Source of the DNA: a virus
IMG/VR virus record: IMGVR_UViG_3300000116_000308
Location: 1-20,953 of that record
Length of the DNA: 20,953 nucleotides
Strand: one strand, 5' to 3'
In this document: positions 3,128-19,855 of the stretch, piece after piece
Layout: each line of letters opens with the position of its first letter
How positions within the stretch are numbered: position 1 is the stretch's first letter
The notes under the pieces: generated by a model
Told to the model about the DNA's origin: nothing
Databases searched by the model: none
What the model saw: the letters and a program-made list of their open reading frames with translations, nothing else
Translations under genes and position numbers: made by a program

Positions 3128-5527
3128 TTATATTGGTAGTATTGTTGCTTGTCCTGTTATAGTTGTAGTCCAATCTTGTCCCGTGATTTCTTGTTCTTCT
3201 CCCATTACTATAAAGCATACTTTATTTTGTTTATATAATTCAGGTAATCTAGAAGGATCTATTTTAAAAACATTACCTATAATTATACCACTTATACCAT
3301 CTAATTTTGCATTAAATTTAAGAGGGATTATTGATGATATATTAGGTTGAGTACGTTTGGGTTCTCCTATTACTCTATTTTCTCTTCCAGGTACTGATAA
3401 CCTTCCTAAATCAGCTTTTGCTGTGTTTAAAAATTTTAAAGCTGCTGTAGCTGAAGATAAGTCACCACCAGGAATTTCATTATAGTCTGTATATGGGTCT
3501 CCTACTAGTTTTATTTTCTTTTGATCACCTTCAACTCCTCTATTATATGATTGAGCTTGAATTAATGTTGGGTTTTCTGCAGATCCTGGAGCTAAATCAC
3601 TTGTTAATCTTAATCTTTGTAAGTATACTTCTAAAGCTATTTTTAATTCCATAAATCTAAATAACTTTTTTTCTGATGTTGAATGAGAAGCATTACTATA
3701 CCATCCATTTTTTCCTATTTCACCCCAATTAACATTATTATTTTTACTTTTAATAAATCTATTTTTTATACCCCTATTAAAAGCCGCAAACGTTACTTCT
3801 TCTAAAGATTCAGGATCATCTGGATTTTGTGCAGCAATAGCTATAGTAGAAGTTAAAGCACTAGGAATAGATAAATCATAATTAAAATCTCTTACTATTG
3901 AGTTTGTATTTAATACATTTAATGTAAATAAACTATCTGAGGTTATACCTTCACCTGTAAAACCTAAATCTATTATTCTTATTCTATGATTTCTTTCAAA
4001 ATCATTTTGAATTTGAAAATTATGGCCATTTCCACATGAAGCATTTACATCACTCCATATTTTTTTTATAAATTTTCCTATACTAAAATTCTCATTAGGC
4101 ACTTGTTCATTAAATTCATCTTTAGTATAATATTGGGATTTAAATGTTTTATAAAGATAAGTTACTTCAAAAGATATGTCTCCAATTCTTCTTGATTTTT
4201 CTAATTTAGGGGCTTTACCCGGTAATAATCTTTTTATATTTTCAGGAAAAAGACATATATTAGGATTTACTGAAAAACTTAAATTTGTGTAATATGTAAA
4301 TATCCCACAACCCTTTAATAAATCTGTTCCTCTAGAATTTGATTGAACTCCTGTAGAAATAGTTGATAAACTATCAGGAATAATATTTTGATTAAAATTT
4401 AATTTATCATGGGTTACTCTTACAAGAGGAAAACTATTAGCATCTAATGGGATACTATTATTTATTATTCCTATAAAATCTCTCCATCTTATCCATACAC
4501 TAGGGTTAGGATCTTTAGTATTAGAATATTTAATAAGTTTTTTATCTAATTTTGAGTAATTAGTTAAAAAATCTTGTTTTTCTTGTTCTCTTAAAAGTAT
4601 TACATCTTCAAGTCGTTGATCTGAATTAGAAAAAAATCCTCCATCACTATATTCTTTAATATCCCCCTCATAATCAGATTTTTGTGGTAATGCTATTGAA
4701 CCTGACTCAACTTGTTCTTCAAAATCATCTAATTCTTCATCTGTAGGTCTATAATCGCTTAATGCTTCTGCGTATTCACTTAGGTCTTCTAAGGTTTTTT
4801 CTAAATATGATTTAGTGTTGTCTTTATCAGATAATCTTCCTCCTAAACTTTCTAAAACTTCACCTATAGATATTAACTCGGTTTTACAAGAATAACCACC
4901 ATCAGATCTAACAGAGTAATTAAAATTTTTAACTATACCATATAAACCATCATAGTTACCTTTAGATGTTTCTTTTTTTGCTATTATTGCTTCTTGCAAA
5001 GTATCTTGATCATATTTTCCATCCTTACCCTCACCCCAAAATTTAGGATTACTTGAAAGATAAGTTAAATTAGATTCTGTGGTTCCATCATTTTTAATGT
5101 AAGGTGCCCATCCCCATTCTAATAAACATGGATACCCCGGTCTCATATATAATTTTTCTAATAAACTTAATTGATCAGTACTATGACATTCAAAATTTAC
5201 AGTAGCTTGTCTTAAAGATCCATAAGCAGTTTTAGTTTTTATATTAACCCCTGTAATACCCGCCATAGGAATTTTACCAAATCCATTTTTGGGTGCATCA
5301 TAAGAAGTAGCAAAACCTCCTCTAAGTGTATCATTTGACTTAGTTCCTCCTTCTAATACATTATTTTTGGCAGTAGTATTACTACCATTAACATTAACTC
5401 CTGAAGCCATTCTAATAGTACATTGTCTAGTAAGAAAATGTGTTCTATCTCCTTGGCTTACTTTAGTTTGTCTTTGGGCTATTTGACCTTGAACAAAATC
5501 TTCAAAACTTTTTTTAAATATAGACAT
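3128..5527 (-). CDS. Putative baseplate hub-like structural protein
   Basis: This 799-residue virion protein resembles large baseplate or hub proteins of marine T4-like phages. Recognisable parts are an N-terminal beta region (GVNIKTKTAYGSLRQATVNF, about 93-112), then LLEKLYMRPGYPCLLEWGW (about 122-140), then YDGLYGIVKNFNYSVRSDGG (about 192-211). The C-terminus (about 735-799), with GISGIIIGNVFKIDP and ITGQDWTTTITG, looks like the end of hub proteins of the gp27 / late-control-D type. The start codon overlaps the LysM gene's stop by one base (TAATG), so the two are probably translated in series and may be made in linked amounts. A LysM protein followed by a hub protein is common in contractile tail clusters. 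A hub role is inferred from this order and the C-terminal similarity, and another baseplate part cannot be excluded. Confidence 0.65.
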   Translation of the reverse strand: MSIFKKSFEDFVQGQIAQRQTKVSQGDRTHFLTRQCTIRMASGVNVNGSNTTAKNNVLEGGTKSNDTLRGGFATSYDAPKNGFGKIPMAGITGVNIKTKTAYGSLRQATVNFECHSTDQLSLLEKLYMRPGYPCLLEWGWAPYIKNDGTTESNLTYLSSNPKFWGEGKDGKYDQDTLQEAIIAKKETSKGNYDGLYGIVKNFNYSVRSDGGYSCKTELISIGEVLESLGGRLSDKDNTKSYLEKTLEDLSEYAEALSDYRPTDEELDDFEEQVESGSIALPQKSDYEGDIKEYSDGGFFSNSDQRLEDVILLREQEKQDFLTNYSKLDKKLIKYSNTKDPNPSVWIRWRDFIGIINNSIPLDANSFPLVRVTHDKLNFNQNIIPDSLSTISTGVQSNSRGTDLLKGCGIFTYYTNLSFSVNPNICLFPENIKRLLPGKAPKLEKSRRIGDISFEVTYLYKTFKSQYYTKDEFNEQVPNENFSIGKFIKKIWSDVNASCGNGHNFQIQNDFERNHRIRIIDLGFTGEGITSDSLFTLNVLNTNSIVRDFNYDLSIPSALTSTIAIAAQNPDDPESLEEVTFAAFNRGIKNRFIKSKNNNVNWGEIGKNGWYSNASHSTSEKKLFRFMELKIALEVYLQRLRLTSDLAPGSAENPTLIQAQSYNRGVEGDQKKIKLVGDPYTDYNEIPGGDLSSATAALKFLNTAKADLGRLSVPGRENRVIGEPKRTQPNISSIIPLKFNAKLDGISGIIIGNVFKIDPSRLPELYKQNKVCFIVMGEEQEITGQDWTTTITGQATILPI

Positions 5528-8697: not shown

Positions 8698-10338
8698 TTA
8701 AGCAAATACAGCGTCTAATGAATTAATTGAATTAAAACGAGGAGTATTAAAGTCTACAGATATAGATCTAGCTGCTGCTTTTGTAGCTAATGATATTATT
8801 TCTGAATCTGAACGACCTTTTCCACCTCCACTACTTAATTGATTATTTGGTATTACATTACCTGAATTTGTAGGTACTATAAGTTCAGGACCTCTTTCTC
8901 CTACCATGTAAGGTTGCCCAGCAGCTATAGGTCCACCTATTGCTCTTCCTTTAGGAGCTCTAGACATATACATTGCTCCTGCAGCTAATGCACCAATTCC
9001 TAATGCTAAAGTAAAAGGATTAGAAAATGCTGCAGCTATTTTAGCAGATGTAATTCCGTTTTGGAGTGCTAACTGTATAGTATCAGAAATATTTTGCCTA
9101 TTTTTATATACTAAAATTGCTGCTTGGTAACCTTTTATAAGTAATAAAGTACCTGCAGTTGCAGCCGCAAATGTAGATATTAAATCCATATTATCAGCCA
9201 TTAAAGCCATTCCTGCAAATACAGGTTCTAAAACTGTAGCTATTGAAACAAATGCTGATTTAACTCTTAAAGTTATCATTTCAAATTGTTTTTGAATATC
9301 TAATCTTTCTAAATTAGCTAAAGTTTCTTCATCACCTTCTGCTCGTGCTTTTTCTTTTAATTCAGAAATAGATGCTTGATTAAATAATTGATCAGCTAAT
9401 TGATCTGATGTCATACCAACAGATTTAGCAATTGCATCTTGTTGTAAAACATTTAATTTACTAAATTCATAAAAATCACCTACATTAGCTGCAATTTCTC
9501 TAGTTAATCCTTCATAATCACCTGTTAAAGCAAATAAACGAGCTTGTTCTAAATTTAATTGTTTACCTGTTAATAATTCTGCTTCTAATTCTGCTTCAAT
9601 ACTACTTTGAAAATCTAATAATGCTTTACTTGTACCCGCAATAGCTTTTAATTCAAATCCTAATTCTTTAGCTACTGCTACTGCTCGTGTTAATTCATTA
9701 ACGTTACCTCCTAATTGGGCTCTAATTTGCCCACCAACTTGAGCTGCTTCATCTATTACTTCAGCAATATTTAATCTGGCACCTAATTCAGCTTCTACAC
9801 CTTTAACTACTCCTACTTGACCTAATACTAAATCTTCTACTGATTTACCTGTTTGGATTGATCTTTTAGCTATATTATTTTGTGCCTCTACAGACATTCC
9901 TAAAGTTAGAGCAAATCTACCTGCAGCTTCAGCTTGTTTAGTTATTAAATTAGTACCAGTACCTAAACTTTTATTAATATTAGTTATAGCTTTTTGTGTA
10001 CCTAAAAAACTAACTCCTATATTTCTACTAAAAGTAGCTGATATGGCTATTTGTCTAGTTAATTTAGTACTATCACTTACACTAAGACCTAAAGATTTTT
10101 GAAATTGAACTTGGGATTTATTAGCACCCTCTATAGCTTTTGCTATATTTTCAGAATTAATTTTAGATTCTTTTAAAAGATCATTTATCCCAAATTGGGA
10201 TTTTAATTGATTTTTTAAAGAACCTTCTATCTTTTTTTCTTCAGCAGCTAAATCTTTAGCAACTTGTTTAGATGCCTTAGCCTCCGTTAGCTTTCTATCG
10301 TATATTTTTTTAAAATCTTTGTCGCTTTCTTCAGCCAT
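8698..10338 (-). CDS. Tail length tape measure protein
   Basis: This 546-residue protein is mostly alpha-helical: a charged coiled-coil-like N-terminus (1-75), long alanine-rich helices (about 90-380), and two hydrophobic helices (about 389-411 and 438-458) of the kind that can enter the host membrane on injection. The C-terminal block GGPIAAGQPYMVGERGPELI (468-487), followed by a VIPN motif, is the typical tape measure tail motif. The protein fills the tube lumen and sets tail length. At about 1.5 angstrom per residue, 546 residues would give a tail near 80 nm, an estimate by rule of thumb only. It follows the gp26/extension chaperone-like pair, as tape measure genes follow their chaperones in other phages. 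A hairpin terminator and a promoter-like element lie just upstream. Confidence 0.9.
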   Translation of the reverse strand: MAEESDKDFKKIYDRKLTEAKASKQVAKDLAAEEKKIEGSLKNQLKSQFGINDLLKESKINSENIAKAIEGANKSQVQFQKSLGLSVSDSTKLTRQIAISATFSRNIGVSFLGTQKAITNINKSLGTGTNLITKQAEAAGRFALTLGMSVEAQNNIAKRSIQTGKSVEDLVLGQVGVVKGVEAELGARLNIAEVIDEAAQVGGQIRAQLGGNVNELTRAVAVAKELGFELKAIAGTSKALLDFQSSIEAELEAELLTGKQLNLEQARLFALTGDYEGLTREIAANVGDFYEFSKLNVLQQDAIAKSVGMTSDQLADQLFNQASISELKEKARAEGDEETLANLERLDIQKQFEMITLRVKSAFVSIATVLEPVFAGMALMADNMDLISTFAAATAGTLLLIKGYQAAILVYKNRQNISDTIQLALQNGITSAKIAAAFSNPFTLALGIGALAAGAMYMSRAPKGRAIGGPIAAGQPYMVGERGPELIVPTNSGNVIPNNQLSSGGGKGRSDSEIISLATKAAARSISVDFNTPRFNSINSLDAVFA

Positions 10339-10363: not shown

Positions 10364-10391
10364 AAAAAAAAAGATGTCTTGTGACATCTTT
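10364..10391 (-). terminator. Rho-independent terminator between the gp26/extension unit and the tape measure gene
   Basis: On the minus strand a perfect 9-bp stem (AAAGATGTC / GACATCTTT, 10391-10383 and 10378-10370) closes a 4-base ACAA loop and is followed by six further U residues (10369-10364). The 5' arm overlaps the stop codon of the frameshift extension (10392-10390). A ribosome finishing the fusion protein would therefore cover that arm. Confidence 0.8.
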
Positions 10392-10635
10392 AAATATTAT
10401 ATGTGGTTGAAGGATTTATGTTAGGTCTTGAAACTCCTTCTTTAGGAACATTTTGTTGAGCTTTTTTCATAGCTTTTTCTTGATCTTTAAAATGTTTATT
10501 TATTATACCAATATGATATCTTCTTAACCAAATAGGCATATCATATACTTCAGAATAAATAAAACCTCCACCTCCATGGAATACTAAATCATGTATTTCT
10601 CTAAAAATATTTTTTCTATACTCAGGATTCAGGCC
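10390..10635 (-). CDS. Frameshift extension of the gp26-type chaperone (no start of its own)
   Basis: The +1 frame relative to the gp26-type gene is open from a TAG just before the T7 run to TAA at 10392-10390, giving 81 codons from GGC at 10635. The product begins GLNPEYRKNIFREIHDLVFH, then a glycine run, then YDMPIWLRRYHIGIINKHF, and ends in a basic helix (KDQEKAMKKAQQ). The MPIWLRRY segment looks like the short proteins that follow gp26 in T4-like phages (gp51-like) and the T part of G/GT chaperones. The first in-frame ATG (10539-10537) would drop the first 32 residues of this coding-like sequence, so entry by frameshift is more likely, giving a fusion of about 330 residues. It lies directly upstream of the tape measure gene. 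The alternative is a homopolymer sequencing error splitting one gene. Confidence 0.75.
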   Translation of the reverse strand, partial: GLNPEYRKNIFREIHDLVFHGGGGFIYSEVYDMPIWLRRYHIGIINKHFKDQEKAMKKAQQNVPKEGVSRPNINPSTTYNI

Positions 10636-11383
10636 AAAAAAAGTTAACCCCTATAGGGATAGGTACCTCCTCTACCACTTTACCATCTAATCCTTCATAA
10701 TCAAACATTAATTTAACATCAGGCATTAATTCTTTTAGGTAACTTCTAAGCGATTTTGAATCTCTTGCTAATAACTGATTATCTACAAATTCTCTAATAG
10801 TTTTTTGTTCATAATCACCATTAATAGAAAGAATAGTATGTTTTAATTTCGTAGTTAAAAGTTTATTTCCTTGGCCTAGTTTTTCTAAACCTTTTAATTC
10901 TTTAGCAATTTTTTGTTCATCACCATGTGTTAAAAGTTTAAAAGTAATATTAACTTTAGAAATAGGAAGAGTAAAACTAAATTCATTTTTACTATTTGTA
11001 ACTTTAGATTCATCTAATTCTTTATCATCTATTTGAGTTAAATCTACTTCTGCTGTTTCTTCTTTACCAGTATTAGGGTGGATAAATTTAAACTTATAAT
11101 CTTTACCATATCCTAAAATACGTGAAGCAACTAATATAGCATTTTTATCTCCTACTAATAAATCATCATAATTTATAGGAGATAAAATTAATGCTTTAAG
11201 TAAAGCATCTATCACTGTACCATTTTGGATTAGGTTTTGGTTTGTTAATATATCCTCTTCACGAGCAGTCATATACTTCATTTCGATTTCTCCTTTTTTT
11301 AAGGGACTATTTTCGGGGTAGAGTAAACCTTTTGAGGGTAATGTAACTATTTCAGAAGGGAATTTGTAACTTGTTTGTTCCAT
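10622..11383 (-). CDS. gp26: Baseplate hub / tail-assembly chaperone protein, T4 gp26 family
   Basis: This 253-residue protein follows the gp26 family pattern of T4-like phages: LPSKGLLYPENSPLKKGEIE near the N-terminus, then MKYMTAREEDILTNQNLI, LLVGDKNAILVASRILGYGK, ITFKLLTHGDEQKIAKELKG, IREFVDNQLLARDSKSLRSY, and a C-terminal IPIGVNFFWPES. T4 gp26 was named a hub subunit, but its place before the tape measure gene suits a tail-assembly chaperone acting before tail completion. The seven-T run near its 3' end is a likely slippage site into an 81-codon extension, so two products are expected: 253 residues, and about 330 by frameshift. Terminators on both sides isolate the cassette. The family call is strong. 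The chaperone role is inference from gene order. Confidence 0.88.
   Translation of the reverse strand: MEQTSYKFPSEIVTLPSKGLLYPENSPLKKGEIEMKYMTAREEDILTNQNLIQNGTVIDALLKALILSPINYDDLLVGDKNAILVASRILGYGKDYKFKFIHPNTGKEETAEVDLTQIDDKELDESKVTNSKNEFSFTLPISKVNITFKLLTHGDEQKIAKELKGLEKLGQGNKLLTTKLKHTILSINGDYEQKTIREFVDNQLLARDSKSLRSYLKELMPDVKLMFDYEGLDGKVVEEVPIPIGVNFFWPES
10633..10660 (-). other. Putative programmed frameshift site (+1 or -2)
   Basis: Zero-frame codons read ATA GGG GTT AAC TTT TTT TGG. The T7 run is at 10642-10636. Skipping one T (+1), or slipping back two (-2), enters the open extension at GGC (10635-10633). A -1 slip would stop two codons later. AGGGG lies 5 bases before the first TTT, recalling the Shine-Dalgarno-like stimulator of the prfB +1 site. 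It is part of a small ATCCC-TATA-GGGGT hairpin (10660-10647). Confidence 0.65.
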
Positions 11384-11420: not shown

Positions 11421-11450
11421 AAAAAGAAAGGACGTCATAAAATGACGTCC
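11418..11450 (-). terminator. Rho-independent terminator after the tail tube gene
   Basis: On the minus strand GGACGTCAT (11450-11442) pairs with ATGACGTCC (11438-11430) around a 3-base loop, a perfect 9-bp GC-containing stem, followed by TTTC and eight U residues to 11418. It lies 29 bases after the tail tube stop and ends transcripts of the sheath/tube unit before the low-abundance chaperone and tape measure genes. Confidence 0.88.
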
Positions 11451-16238: not shown

Positions 16239-16805
16239 TTAAAATTCTTTTTTAGGTAAATAATACTTATTTAAATTAAAGTAATTATTTACAGGAGGAT
16301 TAATATTTAATATTTGATAAGTTACATTTGGTATGTTATAAAAATTAGTTTCAGAAGGTTCATTATTCCACCAAGTTACTTTTGCTCCTTCTTTTACTAA
16401 ACTACTTAATGAAGAACTAAATTTATTCATATCTTGATCTCCAAAAGTATCATAAAATACGCCATCATAAGTTGATAAAGAATCTTTTACACTATACCAA
16501 CTACCAGTTATAATAGTTACATTTGATTTACTGGCTGCCCATTCTTGAGCTTTAGTAATTATTTGAGGATGGTTTTCAATTATTGTATGCGAATTAATTG
16601 AATGAGAATGCATGTAACCTGCTGATATACCCATTCCAAATCCTATTTCTAATATGTCTCCGCCTCCTTCACAAACATAAGCAGCTGAAGCTGACATTAG
16701 GGAATCTTCCCAATCCATCATTACTTCTCTATTACTACCAAAGGCTTTATCTGTATAATAGATTTTATCTGATTCGAATATTAATGTTTCTTCTAAATAT
16801 CCCAT
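16239..16805 (-). CDS. SAM-dependent methyltransferase, guanidinoacetate/arginine N-methyltransferase-like
   Basis: This 188-residue Rossmann-fold methyltransferase has motif I as ILEIGFGMGISA (51-62), the acidic end of strand 2 as HTIIENHP with E77, and YDGVFYDTFGD (113-123) after strand 4. The order VMMDWED (28-34), then the GFGMxIxA loop, then DGxxYDT is the pattern of guanidinoacetate methyltransferase (GAMT) and the related yeast RMT2 arginine methyltransferase. E33 (in DWE) and D119 (in YDT) align with the two acidic residues that bind the guanidino group in GAMT. The protein is shorter than GAMT (about 236), chiefly at the N-terminus. It overlaps the fibre gene stop by one base (TAATG), so it is made with fibre proteins. 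Possible targets are an arginine side chain of a virion protein or a small guanidino compound. The fold is secure, the substrate is not. Confidence 0.85.
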   Translation of the reverse strand: MGYLEETLIFESDKIYYTDKAFGSNREVMMDWEDSLMSASAAYVCEGGGDILEIGFGMGISAGYMHSHSINSHTIIENHPQIITKAQEWAASKSNVTIITGSWYSVKDSLSTYDGVFYDTFGDQDMNKFSSSLSSLVKEGAKVTWWNNEPSETNFYNIPNVTYQILNINPPVNNYFNLNKYYLPKKEF

Positions 16806-19800
16806 TATGCGTTAACTTCTACGAATGTACTATCCGGATTAAACCATATTTGACCATTTGAGGCATCTAAACAATATCCTACAATTCTTACTATATTACC
16901 ATTACCTGAAGGGGCAGTTGCACTAACATCTCCTGCTGTGGTTGTTAAATATAAAGCATCACCTACAGCTCCTGGATCATGATCTAAAGTAACCATACCT
17001 CTTAATAATACTCCATTAATGTCTGAAGCTGCTCCTAATGCTACTCCTAATAATCCATCAGATTTTGTATTATCGTCTGCATCTGCTAATTCCCAAGTAC
17101 CATTTGATTTATAATGGTATATAGCTCCTGCAGTCATTGATGTTGTTCCCCCAAATTTGACTATATCACCTTTAGCTTCTCCATCAGTTGTGCCTGTTAT
17201 ACTGTGTTGTGTTAATCCTGCTTGACCTGTTATAGTACCACTTGAACTTATATTACCTGAAGCTGTTACGTGACCACTGCCTATTATAACTTTATCACTA
17301 ACACTATTATTAAAAGTTATATTACCACCATCTGGGTTAACATGTAAATTAGAAACAGCACCATTATTTCTAGCCATTATTTCGTTATTATCTATAATAA
17401 CATTGGTAGAATTTGTTAATCCTGCTTGGAAAGCATGTCCTGTACTTGATACACTAGCATCTGTAGTTGATGATAATCTTAAAGTATTAGCTGTAACTGT
17501 GCCACTTGAGCTTATATTGCCTGAGGCTGTTACATTTCCTTCAACTTCTAAATGACCAGTACCAGTTGTTGGTCCAGTTTTTACTTTTAATGAGCCAGAT
17601 ATATGCACAGTATCAGGTTCAACACTATGTTGCCTCATGAAGAATTTCATTAAAGGCGTCTCTAAACTACCTCTTTGGATTTGTAATTCATATTGCGCAT
17701 TTGCATTTATTACAGGATAGGTTTTATTTGCAGCAGAAGGTCCAAAATGAAGTATATGATTTGCAAAACTTCCTTCACCAAGAAAAATATTATCTCGTGA
17801 TGAAATTGTTCCACCTGTTAAAATTGTAGAAGTACTACTACCACTTATATTACCTGAGGCTGTTATATTTGTATCTACATTAAAAGATGTTCCTCTTAAT
17901 TTTGTTTTTCTATTATCTTGACTAATGACAAGTTGACCATCATAATGGATAGCTTCCATGTCAGACGCTATTAATTTAGTAGTACCACTAAGTATTGCAT
18001 TAGCACTAAATGTTTTTGCTCCACTAAATGTTTGTGTTCCTGTCAGGTGAGCAGTGTTTGATGATAAATATGCATCTGCAATGGCAGTACCTTGCCAAGT
18101 ACCAGTTCCAATAGTACCTACTGTGGTAATATTTGAAGTACCTGCAAATGTTGAAATTGCTGTGTTTTCTACATTAGTTAAATTTGAACCAATAATTGTA
18201 CCACTTGAACTTATATTACCTGAGGCTGTTATATGATTATTTACAGTTAAAGATTTATCTTGATCTATAGTTGCTGCTAAAGCTGTTGCACTGGTAGTAT
18301 TTGGTGTGACATGAAATTCAAGTTTACTACCTCCATTAGCTTCAGATGCATGATCTTCTGTTGCAACACCTTTTATTCTTAAAGTAGTTCCATCATCATC
18401 TTCATTATTGAAAGCTATTTGTCCTAGTTCATCACCATCTGCTACTGTAGTACTTGCATCTAAAAGTGTTAATGCAGGTGTTGTTCCTTCTATAACCACA
18501 CTATCTGCTAAATAAACACGATCAAAACTACGTTTCATGTAAATTTGCCGCATAAAAGTATTATCATGCATAGTACCTATAGCAAACTCATCATTATCTT
18601 CATTGTAAACTATTTTTGCTCCATATTGAGGAGAGTCAACATCGTAAGTTCCTGTCTCATAAAATGTTATACCGCCGCCGCTAGCATCATCACCATTTTG
18701 ACAGTCAATAGAAATCCAATTATTTGATGTATCACCTGCGCCCCCAATTCTTAAATTACCTTGTAATGTAGTATCACCACTTATTATATCGTTAAAAGTA
18801 GTAGCACCATGTATCTGATTATTACTAGATGCACTTATAATTATTCTAATACCTTTTAGTTTTTTAGTGTCCCCTAATGTAATGTCATCTGCAAAATTTG
18901 AAGTACTAGCTATATCTAATGTGTTAGCTTTTATTTCTCCACTTGCACTTATATTACCATACACAGTTAACATATTAGTAGTATCAGGCGTTCCTCCTAT
19001 TGCAATACGTGCATTTTCATTTGCTGTTCCACCGGACGCCGATACCATAAAATGGTTAACAGAGGCTGGGTTAGTAATGCCGGCATTAATTATTAAACCA
19101 CCTTGTCCTATTCCAAACGTGTATTCATTTCCAGGATAGTCAAAGAATATTCCTGCGGTACTAGAGGCCATACGAATATCATCGCCTATAAATAAGTCAT
19201 CACTTATTGTTAAATCATCACAAAATATATCACCACTTGCACTTATGTTACCTGAGGCTGTTATATTAGTTGCTTTTATATCACCATCTACAGTTAATAA
19301 TGAATCACTTACTGTATTTGTTCCAATAGCCATTTTATTAGCTCCGGCATCTACAAATAATAAATGAGTATCAGAATTTGATTCTACTCTAAAATCAACC
19401 GGTGCTTGGCCCCCCTCATTAATCGTAACTCCTGCTGATGAAAATCTAGCTGCTTCTACACCATTAGCATTTATTTTCCAATAATCATCATTATTAGCTA
19501 TTATTCGTGTACCAGATGATCCTACAAAAATTTCACCATTATTAGATAATTCAATGTTACCATCCATACTTAACGCACCTGATACATTTAAAGAACCAGT
19601 ACGTTTATGAATATCACCAGAATCATCTCCAAAATCTGTTGAACCTGATAAGGTTTGAGTTGTTATATTAGTAACTGAAGTAGAAACTATGTAATTTTCA
19701 GCTGTTAAATTTTTAAAAGTAAAACTATTAACACTAACTGAACTTGAACCATAAAATAATTTACCATTATCAAGATTAATTGCTAATTCTCCATCTGCTA

Positions 19801-19855
19801 ATCCTGATGGGACTGATGTTCCTGTTCCTCTTTTTATTTGTATTGTACTTGCCAT
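16805..19855 (-). CDS. Large repeat-containing tail fibre protein
   Basis: This is a 1016-residue protein. The N-terminus STIQIKRGTGTSVPSGLADG, followed by ELAINLDNGKLFYG (to about residue 36), is the common fibre attachment motif. The shaft holds at least six copies of TASGNIS[AS]SG near residues 198, 298, 540, 661, 774 and 861, separated by variable beta segments. The last ~110 residues (AIYHYKSNGTWELADADDNT, then DGLLGVALG, VLLRGMVTLDHDPGAVGDAL and FNPDSTFVEV) form a conserved C-terminal domain found in other marine phage fibre proteins. It probably forms a trimeric fibre that contacts the host. It is followed, with one base of overlap, by the methyltransferase gene. Shaft repeats are also DNA-level repeats and may allow length change by recombination. 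No lyase or peptidase site was seen. Confidence 0.8.
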   Translation of the reverse strand: MASTIQIKRGTGTSVPSGLADGELAINLDNGKLFYGSSSVSVNSFTFKNLTAENYIVSTSVTNITTQTLSGSTDFGDDSGDIHKRTGSLNVSGALSMDGNIELSNNGEIFVGSSGTRIIANNDDYWKINANGVEAARFSSAGVTINEGGQAPVDFRVESNSDTHLLFVDAGANKMAIGTNTVSDSLLTVDGDIKATNITASGNISASGDIFCDDLTISDDLFIGDDIRMASSTAGIFFDYPGNEYTFGIGQGGLIINAGITNPASVNHFMVSASGGTANENARIAIGGTPDTTNMLTVYGNISASGEIKANTLDIASTSNFADDITLGDTKKLKGIRIIISASSNNQIHGATTFNDIISGDTTLQGNLRIGGAGDTSNNWISIDCQNGDDASGGGITFYETGTYDVDSPQYGAKIVYNEDNDEFAIGTMHDNTFMRQIYMKRSFDRVYLADSVVIEGTTPALTLLDASTTVADGDELGQIAFNNEDDDGTTLRIKGVATEDHASEANGGSKLEFHVTPNTTSATALAATIDQDKSLTVNNHITASGNISSSGTIIGSNLTNVENTAISTFAGTSNITTVGTIGTGTWQGTAIADAYLSSNTAHLTGTQTFSGAKTFSANAILSGTTKLIASDMEAIHYDGQLVISQDNRKTKLRGTSFNVDTNITASGNISGSSTSTILTGGTISSRDNIFLGEGSFANHILHFGPSAANKTYPVINANAQYELQIQRGSLETPLMKFFMRQHSVEPDTVHISGSLKVKTGPTTGTGHLEVEGNVTASGNISSSGTVTANTLRLSSTTDASVSSTGHAFQAGLTNSTNVIIDNNEIMARNNGAVSNLHVNPDGGNITFNNSVSDKVIIGSGHVTASGNISSSGTITGQAGLTQHSITGTTDGEAKGDIVKFGGTTSMTAGAIYHYKSNGTWELADADDNTKSDGLLGVALGAASDINGVLLRGMVTLDHDPGAVGDALYLTTTAGDVSATAPSGNGNIVRIVGYCLDASNGQIWFNPDSTFVEVNA
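17235..19268 (-). repeat. Dispersed in-gene repeat family in the fibre gene (six copies)
   Basis: Copies of about 25-40 bases lie near 17235-17272, 17499-17534, 17838-17868, 18198-18235, 18937-18960 and 19229-19268. On the plus strand they share CCACTTGAACTTATATTACC-type sequence, followed in most by TGAGGCTGTTA, and encode the TASGNISxSG motif. Spacing is irregular but always in frame. The copies are close enough at DNA level to recombine. Confidence 0.85.

Follow-up and report, generated by a model that had tools for sequence, protein, structure and literature searches.

In phage lambda, the tail assembly chaperones gpG and gpGT arise by a programmed frameshift (Xu, Hendrix and Duda 2004; reviewed in PMC5009743). 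Tail chaperones are known to use −1, −2 or +1 shifts, with T4 named as an exception (PMC5009743). As far as the citing papers relay the work of Vladimirov 2022, T4-like phages make their short and long chaperones from two genes (PMC10274946), and poly-T −1 signals occur in T4-like chaperones (PMC12846349); phage 0305phi8-36 also uses two genes (PMC2147016). Here we consider a gp26-type gene in a 20,953-nucleotide (nt) stretch of marine phage DNA (IMG/VR record IMGVR_UViG_3300000116_000308, positions 1 to 20,953; hereafter the window), which, judging from sequence comparison, very probably yields two tail assembly chaperones by a programmed +1 ribosomal frameshift. As in lambda, there would be an N form and a C-extended form. 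In contrast to lambda, the shift is +1 instead of −1, no sequence similarity was found, and the N domain is of the PF12322 type and belongs to a contractile-tailed phage.

The short form, which we call TAC-N (for tail assembly chaperone), is encoded in frame 0 on the minus strand at 10622–11383 (253 amino acids plus stop) and matches the T4_baseplate profile PF12322 (E 3.5e-8; 33.8 bits against a cut-off of 24.5; the single match in this incomplete 20.9-kb contig) as well as phrog_150 (E 3.7e-14). Its end on this strand, GTT AAC TTT TTT TGG CCT GAA TCC TGA (VNFFWPES-TGA), with a run of seven T at 10642–10636 just before the stop, is as the first-pass annotation had described it. The same is true for its second observation, a +1 frame open for 81 codons with no ATG in the first 32: from 10635 this frame reads GGC CTG AAT CCT GAG TAT and on to TAA at 10392–10390 (GLNPEYRK...TYNI), and the earliest ATG comes 32 codons into it, as the M of MPIW. 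This TAC-C extension (10390–10635, 81 amino acids plus stop) has backing from both coding pattern and conservation. Open from 10650, the +1 frame encodes GLNPEYRKNIFREIHDLVFHGGGGFIYSEVYDMPIWLRRYHIGIINKHFK... from the T run onward to its end at 10390. Since it is closed upstream by TAG at 10653–10651, and frame 0 ends with TGA at 10624–10622, the shift must fall within the overlap in which both frames are open, i.e. 10650–10622. The predicted fusion, TAC-NC, comprises 330 amino acids (10390–11383).

Relatives were collected by scanning IMG/VR with the window protein and those of Flavobacterium phage immuto, LR756508 (an uncultured 484-kb phage), Bacillus SP-15, RM378 and L179 (L-numbers label the relatives' loci), and were complemented by one Winogradskyella metagenome-assembled genome and annotated phages, giving 205 unique complete loci. 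A +1 frame open for at least 40 codons beyond the frame-0 stop, our criterion for an extension, is present in 201 of these; three have a separate C gene and one a broken N open reading frame (ORF). In the first set of 162 loci, the median extension is 78 amino acids in the +1 frame compared with 10 in the −1 frame. The same frame relation together with a long +1 extension across relatives therefore rules out that a sequencing slip, or an open frame arising by chance, is behind the observation. Differences at the three codon positions of the extension, counted in the +1 frame, amount to 7012:4352:20060, i.e. a coding pattern, and in the alignment of relatives the extension is conserved from its first residues GLT. 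A conserved start codon for the extension was sought among the relatives and not found; the first ATG lies 32 residues into the C domain in 60 of 149 loci of the first set. The fusion was missed in existing records, with that of phage immuto showing a 'baseplate hub subunit' and a 36-residue hypothetical ORF and that of Mel-JY01 two overlapping hypotheticals. A search of a plasmid collection gave no match.

Where the ribosome would slip is indicated by codon usage around the end of frame 0. The site in the window, AAC TTT TTT TGG CCT (10631–10645, minus strand), shows the lowest synonymous variation of the gene: relative to expectation, the values for F310, F311, P313 and D314 are 0.00, 0.10, 0.00 and 0.06, the lowest four of 248 codon columns, compared with about 1.1 in the columns directly upstream. 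Constraint on the P and D columns results from double coding, as Leu-Thr is read here in the +1 frame; constraint on the two Phe codons fits a slip site. Among the frameshifting loci, the codons are TTT TTT TGG CCT in 100, TTT CTT TGG CCT in 75, TTC TTT TGG CCT in 12 and TTT CTA TGG CCT in four, with further variants found once or twice. All of them, 201 of 201, offer UUU followed by U or C, in comparison to 99 of 183 other Phe-Phe or Phe-Leu pairs in the same genes. When the second codon is Leu, it is exclusively CTT or CTA, though TTA makes up 56% of Leu codons, and this restriction perhaps reflects a slow A-site codon. The shortest overlap between the two stops, 20 nt (ACTTTTTTTGGCCTGACGCC), pins the site. 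It had been proposed to ask among relatives whether T run, frame relation and extension are conserved; the latter two are, but the T run is not, with seven T in about half of the members and a broken run (TTTCTTT or other) in more than 90. As a separate observation, the distant Firmicutes phages SP-15, LIS04 and GXN1 (L084, L085, L086) have in common an xCC CGA TTY a few codons past the Phe pair, which is a second candidate +1 site.

A simple mechanism could operate at this site. The majority of ribosomes would stay in frame 0 and produce the 253-residue gp26-type TAC-N. With tRNA-Phe on one of the two tandem Phe (or Phe-Leu) codons and U or C as the next base, a fraction would slip one base forward, re-pairing from UUU to UUU or UUC (or, perhaps, from CUU to UUU in some relatives), and would then translate GGC CUG and on into the 330-residue TAC-NC. 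If the analogy with lambda holds, the tape measure protein, whose gene comes next, would be covered by the N form, and the less abundant long form would deliver tail tube subunits to it. What comparison shows is the frame of the fusion, how it is conserved, where the site lies and that the direction is +1; the ribosome as the agent, the identity of the slipping codon, the efficiency and the roles of the two proteins are what we infer.

Other ways of reaching the same frame have to be considered. A −2 ribosomal frameshift, for which phage Mu provides an example, would at the T run lead into the identical frame with one extra residue in the product, and a simple check of anticodon re-pairing at all 201 sites permits it at 183 of them. 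It is impossible at the 18 others (TTC TTT T, TTC TTT C, TTT CTA), whereas +1 re-pairing is available at 201 of 201, making −2 a very improbable direction; of the alternative '+1 or −2' in the first-pass annotation, +1 is the part that holds. Somewhat less improbable, but still unlikely, is a +1 shift at the CCT codon instead of the Phe codons, with tRNA-Pro moving from CCU to CUG or CUA. CCT is nearly invariant (synonymous ratio 0.00 at P313), the base following it is G or A in the frameshifters, and the split locus L185 carries CCA in its place. Yet Leu in the +1 frame also forces CCT, slippage of tRNA-Pro leaves the constraint on both Phe codons unaccounted for, and RM378 has the site TTT TTT TGG AAT, i.e. 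no CCT at all. Transcriptional slippage that joins the frames already in the mRNA could use the run of seven T in that half of the members which possess it, but we give this hardly any credence, as 76 of the 201 loci have TTTCTTT, others TTCTTTT or TTTCTAT, and some no run longer than four T, all with an unchanged frame relation. An assembly or sequencing error has in its favour that seven T are a homopolymer; this becomes a negligible prospect given that 201 independent unique sequences agree in their frame relation, many of them free of a homopolymer and isolate genomes among them.

That the extension is a separate protein made from an internal start by coupled re-initiation, with no fusion being formed, has real counterparts, as a separate ATG-started ORF after the N stop does exist in L179, L185 and L089. 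This is precisely the situation named by the first-pass annotation as contradicting its idea, and it is confined to a nested clade lacking the slip site and to one distant phage. In L179 and L185, which are nested within the TTTCTT frameshifters (support 100/96 and 99/95), the C domain is a separate ORF with an ATG directly past the N stop (near position 3709) and about 20 extra N-terminal residues; their sites, TTC TTG TAT CCT and TTC CTT TGG CCA, respectively, are both without UUU followed by U or C. Such a loss alongside an independent start for the C part is what one would expect if the site served the fusion. L089, with its own separate ATG-started C ORF, is a very distant phage. The other 201 loci, however, do not have a conserved start, the earliest ATG of 60 among the 149 in the first set comes only 32 residues past the beginning of the domain, the conserved GLT..YR is encoded ahead of that ATG, and the slip codons are under constraint. 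For the family at large, independent initiation thus seems very unlikely, on a par with the −2 shift.

With a programmed +1 frameshift as the preferred reading, the next question is what kind of proteins it connects. In profile comparisons, the window-family fusion matches the cyanophage gp26 fusion (94.4%, E 1.7e-8, 276 columns), and NFF-GL falls on SFF-RL in this alignment; the cyanophage gp26 fusion in turn matches T4 gp51 over its full length (99.7%) and gp26 to its end (99.7%), and gp51 and gp26 of T4 share a match over the N part (99.6%). T4 gp51 may therefore be regarded as the in-frame N+C counterpart and T4 gp26 as the N part. An AlphaFold2 model of the fusion, computed from the unchanged N ORFs of relatives plus the window's own fusion, reached a pLDDT (predicted local distance difference test score) of 84.7, with a modest 68 for the C domain modelled alone. 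Realigned to PDB chains, the fusion model fits best to YqbN (3klu; Z 5.5, root-mean-square deviation (rmsd) 5.4, 89 residues aligned), which we take to be a PBSX-type chaperone, followed by the HK97 tail assembly chaperone (2ob9; Z 4.8, rmsd 4.7, 99 aligned); a Foldseek search of the PDB with this model gave no significant E-value. Profile links, the realigned model and the position before the tape measure gene support a short/long pair of tail assembly chaperones. The conserved frame relation and site, PF12322 and the profile links likewise uphold the proposal that this gp26-type locus is the T4-like counterpart of lambda G/GT. Vladimirov, Gautam and Davidson reportedly treated T4 gp26 and gp51 as the T4-like tail assembly chaperones in 2022. 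Tying gp26 and gp51 to the general chaperone scheme, as the first-pass annotation did, is thus supported but not new, being the subject of Vladimirov 2022 so far as PMC10274946 and PMC12846349 represent it.

Several points weigh against this overall interpretation. The support for the frameshift is comparative throughout, and many of the relatives are close kin, so that counts across loci are not independent. A direct profile match of the window-family fusion to T4 gp51 or gp26 does not reach significance; that the C part is homologous to T4 gp51 is supported with the cyanophage fusion as a bridge, and depends on it. Structural Z scores near 5 are middling. Furthermore, a conserved stimulator, sought as Shine–Dalgarno (SD)-like words and downstream folding, was not found, and slippage of UUU-U before UGG has to be explained by the site alone. 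An AGGGG 5 nt before the T run, reminiscent of prfB, and a 5-bp hairpin at 10660–10647 are both present in the window as had been reported, but neither is conserved: an SD-like word occurs within 18 nt upstream of the site in just 39 of 198 relatives, and the Ile-Pro-Ile-Gly (IPIG) codons of the hairpin show normal synonymous change. Downstream RNA folding at the site (mean z −0.63) does not differ from that in control windows (−0.58), and an Rfam search gave no match.

In several known systems, parts of this arrangement recur. The prfB (RF2) frameshift is similar in that a P-site tRNA slips one base forward. CUU-U, the prfB slip step, is present at the site in 76 relatives. Here, however, the A-site codon is UGG and not a stop, there is no conserved SD sequence and the shift is not autoregulatory. 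T4 shares the homologous N domain (PF12322) and, via cyanophage gp26, the C domain of gp51, but produces N and N+C from two genes, whereas here a single locus with a +1 overlap stands directly before the tape measure gene. In the cyanophages (Kyanoviridae), gp26 and a short 'gp51' ORF have homologous N and C parts and the shift occurs at the same Phe-Phe codons ending N; it is, however, a −1 shift at T TTT TTC instead of +1. A −1 extension of at least 40 amino acids is found in 79 of 79 complete cyanophage-type loci and a +1 extension of 40 in none of 81, and 80 of 81 have T TTT TTC at their Phe-Phe codons. Cyanophage short ORFs labelled 'baseplate hub assembly catalyst' (gp51; L277:2471-3369, L287–L366) occupy the −1 frame past gp26, of which they look like the frameshift extension. 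SPP1 also has programmed shifts of both directions among its tail genes, gp17.1* being made by +1 at CCC UAA and gp17.5* by −1 at UUUUUUC (PMC6316719). These belong to other gene families, and the SPP1 chaperone itself uses −1, at UUUUUUC (PMC6316719), which is the cyanophage heptamer as well.

The tail genes on the minus strand of the window run from tail sheath through tail tube and the gp26-type protein with its +1-frame extension to the tape measure protein. The tape measure gene (8698–10338, with PHROG tape measure matches) begins 51 nt past the end of the extension; a long ORF follows the extension in 180 relatives, starting at a median distance of 46 nt. The window's tape measure protein has only 546 amino acids, a length that, set against about 1006 for the one of phage immuto, points to a shorter tail or else a divided gene. 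Hairpins resembling intrinsic terminators, with T runs, stand on both sides of the chaperone gene, within the tail gene series (10370–10391 and 11430–11450); the former, on the minus strand between chaperone and tape measure genes, has a similar counterpart in 49 of 197 relatives. Elsewhere in the window, a 429-residue ORF adjoining the tail module (113–1402) shows a partial match to family A DNA polymerase, slightly below the Pfam cut-off, a 188-residue methyltransferase-like ORF (16239–16805; weak Methyltransf_25 match) lies among tail fibre or appendage genes, and a 1016-residue protein with many ITASGNIS-like repeats and a weakly Mtd_N-like start (16805–19855) is likely a tail fibre or appendage.

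No description of a +1 shift in gp26 turned up in the literature searched, which excluded the full texts of Vladimirov 2022 and Xu 2013. As far as this search reached, the +1 version and its extent, the rule of UUU followed by U or C, the clade that lost this motif and the switch between +1 and −1 at one site look new. Overall, it seems likely that the same two Phe codons of one homologous chaperone gene are used for +1 shifting in Bacteroidota-type phages (along with relatives of Microcystis, Bacillus and Rhodothermus) and for −1 shifting in cyanophages, with T4 using two genes and at least one clade having split the gene, and that, apart from the tRNA-Phe slip codons, no conserved stimulator is required for the +1 shift.

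T4 has been the standing exception to the frameshift rule for the tail chaperones of long-tailed phages (PMC5009743), and counterparts of its gp26 here appear to frameshift by +1. About 200 phage sequences are concerned, whose records show two unrelated ORFs or none; for annotators, short 'gp51' or hypothetical ORFs past gp26 would thus be frameshift extensions. The family provides natural variants of the slip site, a clade that gave the shift up and a sister group with slippage in the opposite direction at the same codons. With this family, direct tests could thus become possible of how +1 slippage works and how it was reversed in evolution.
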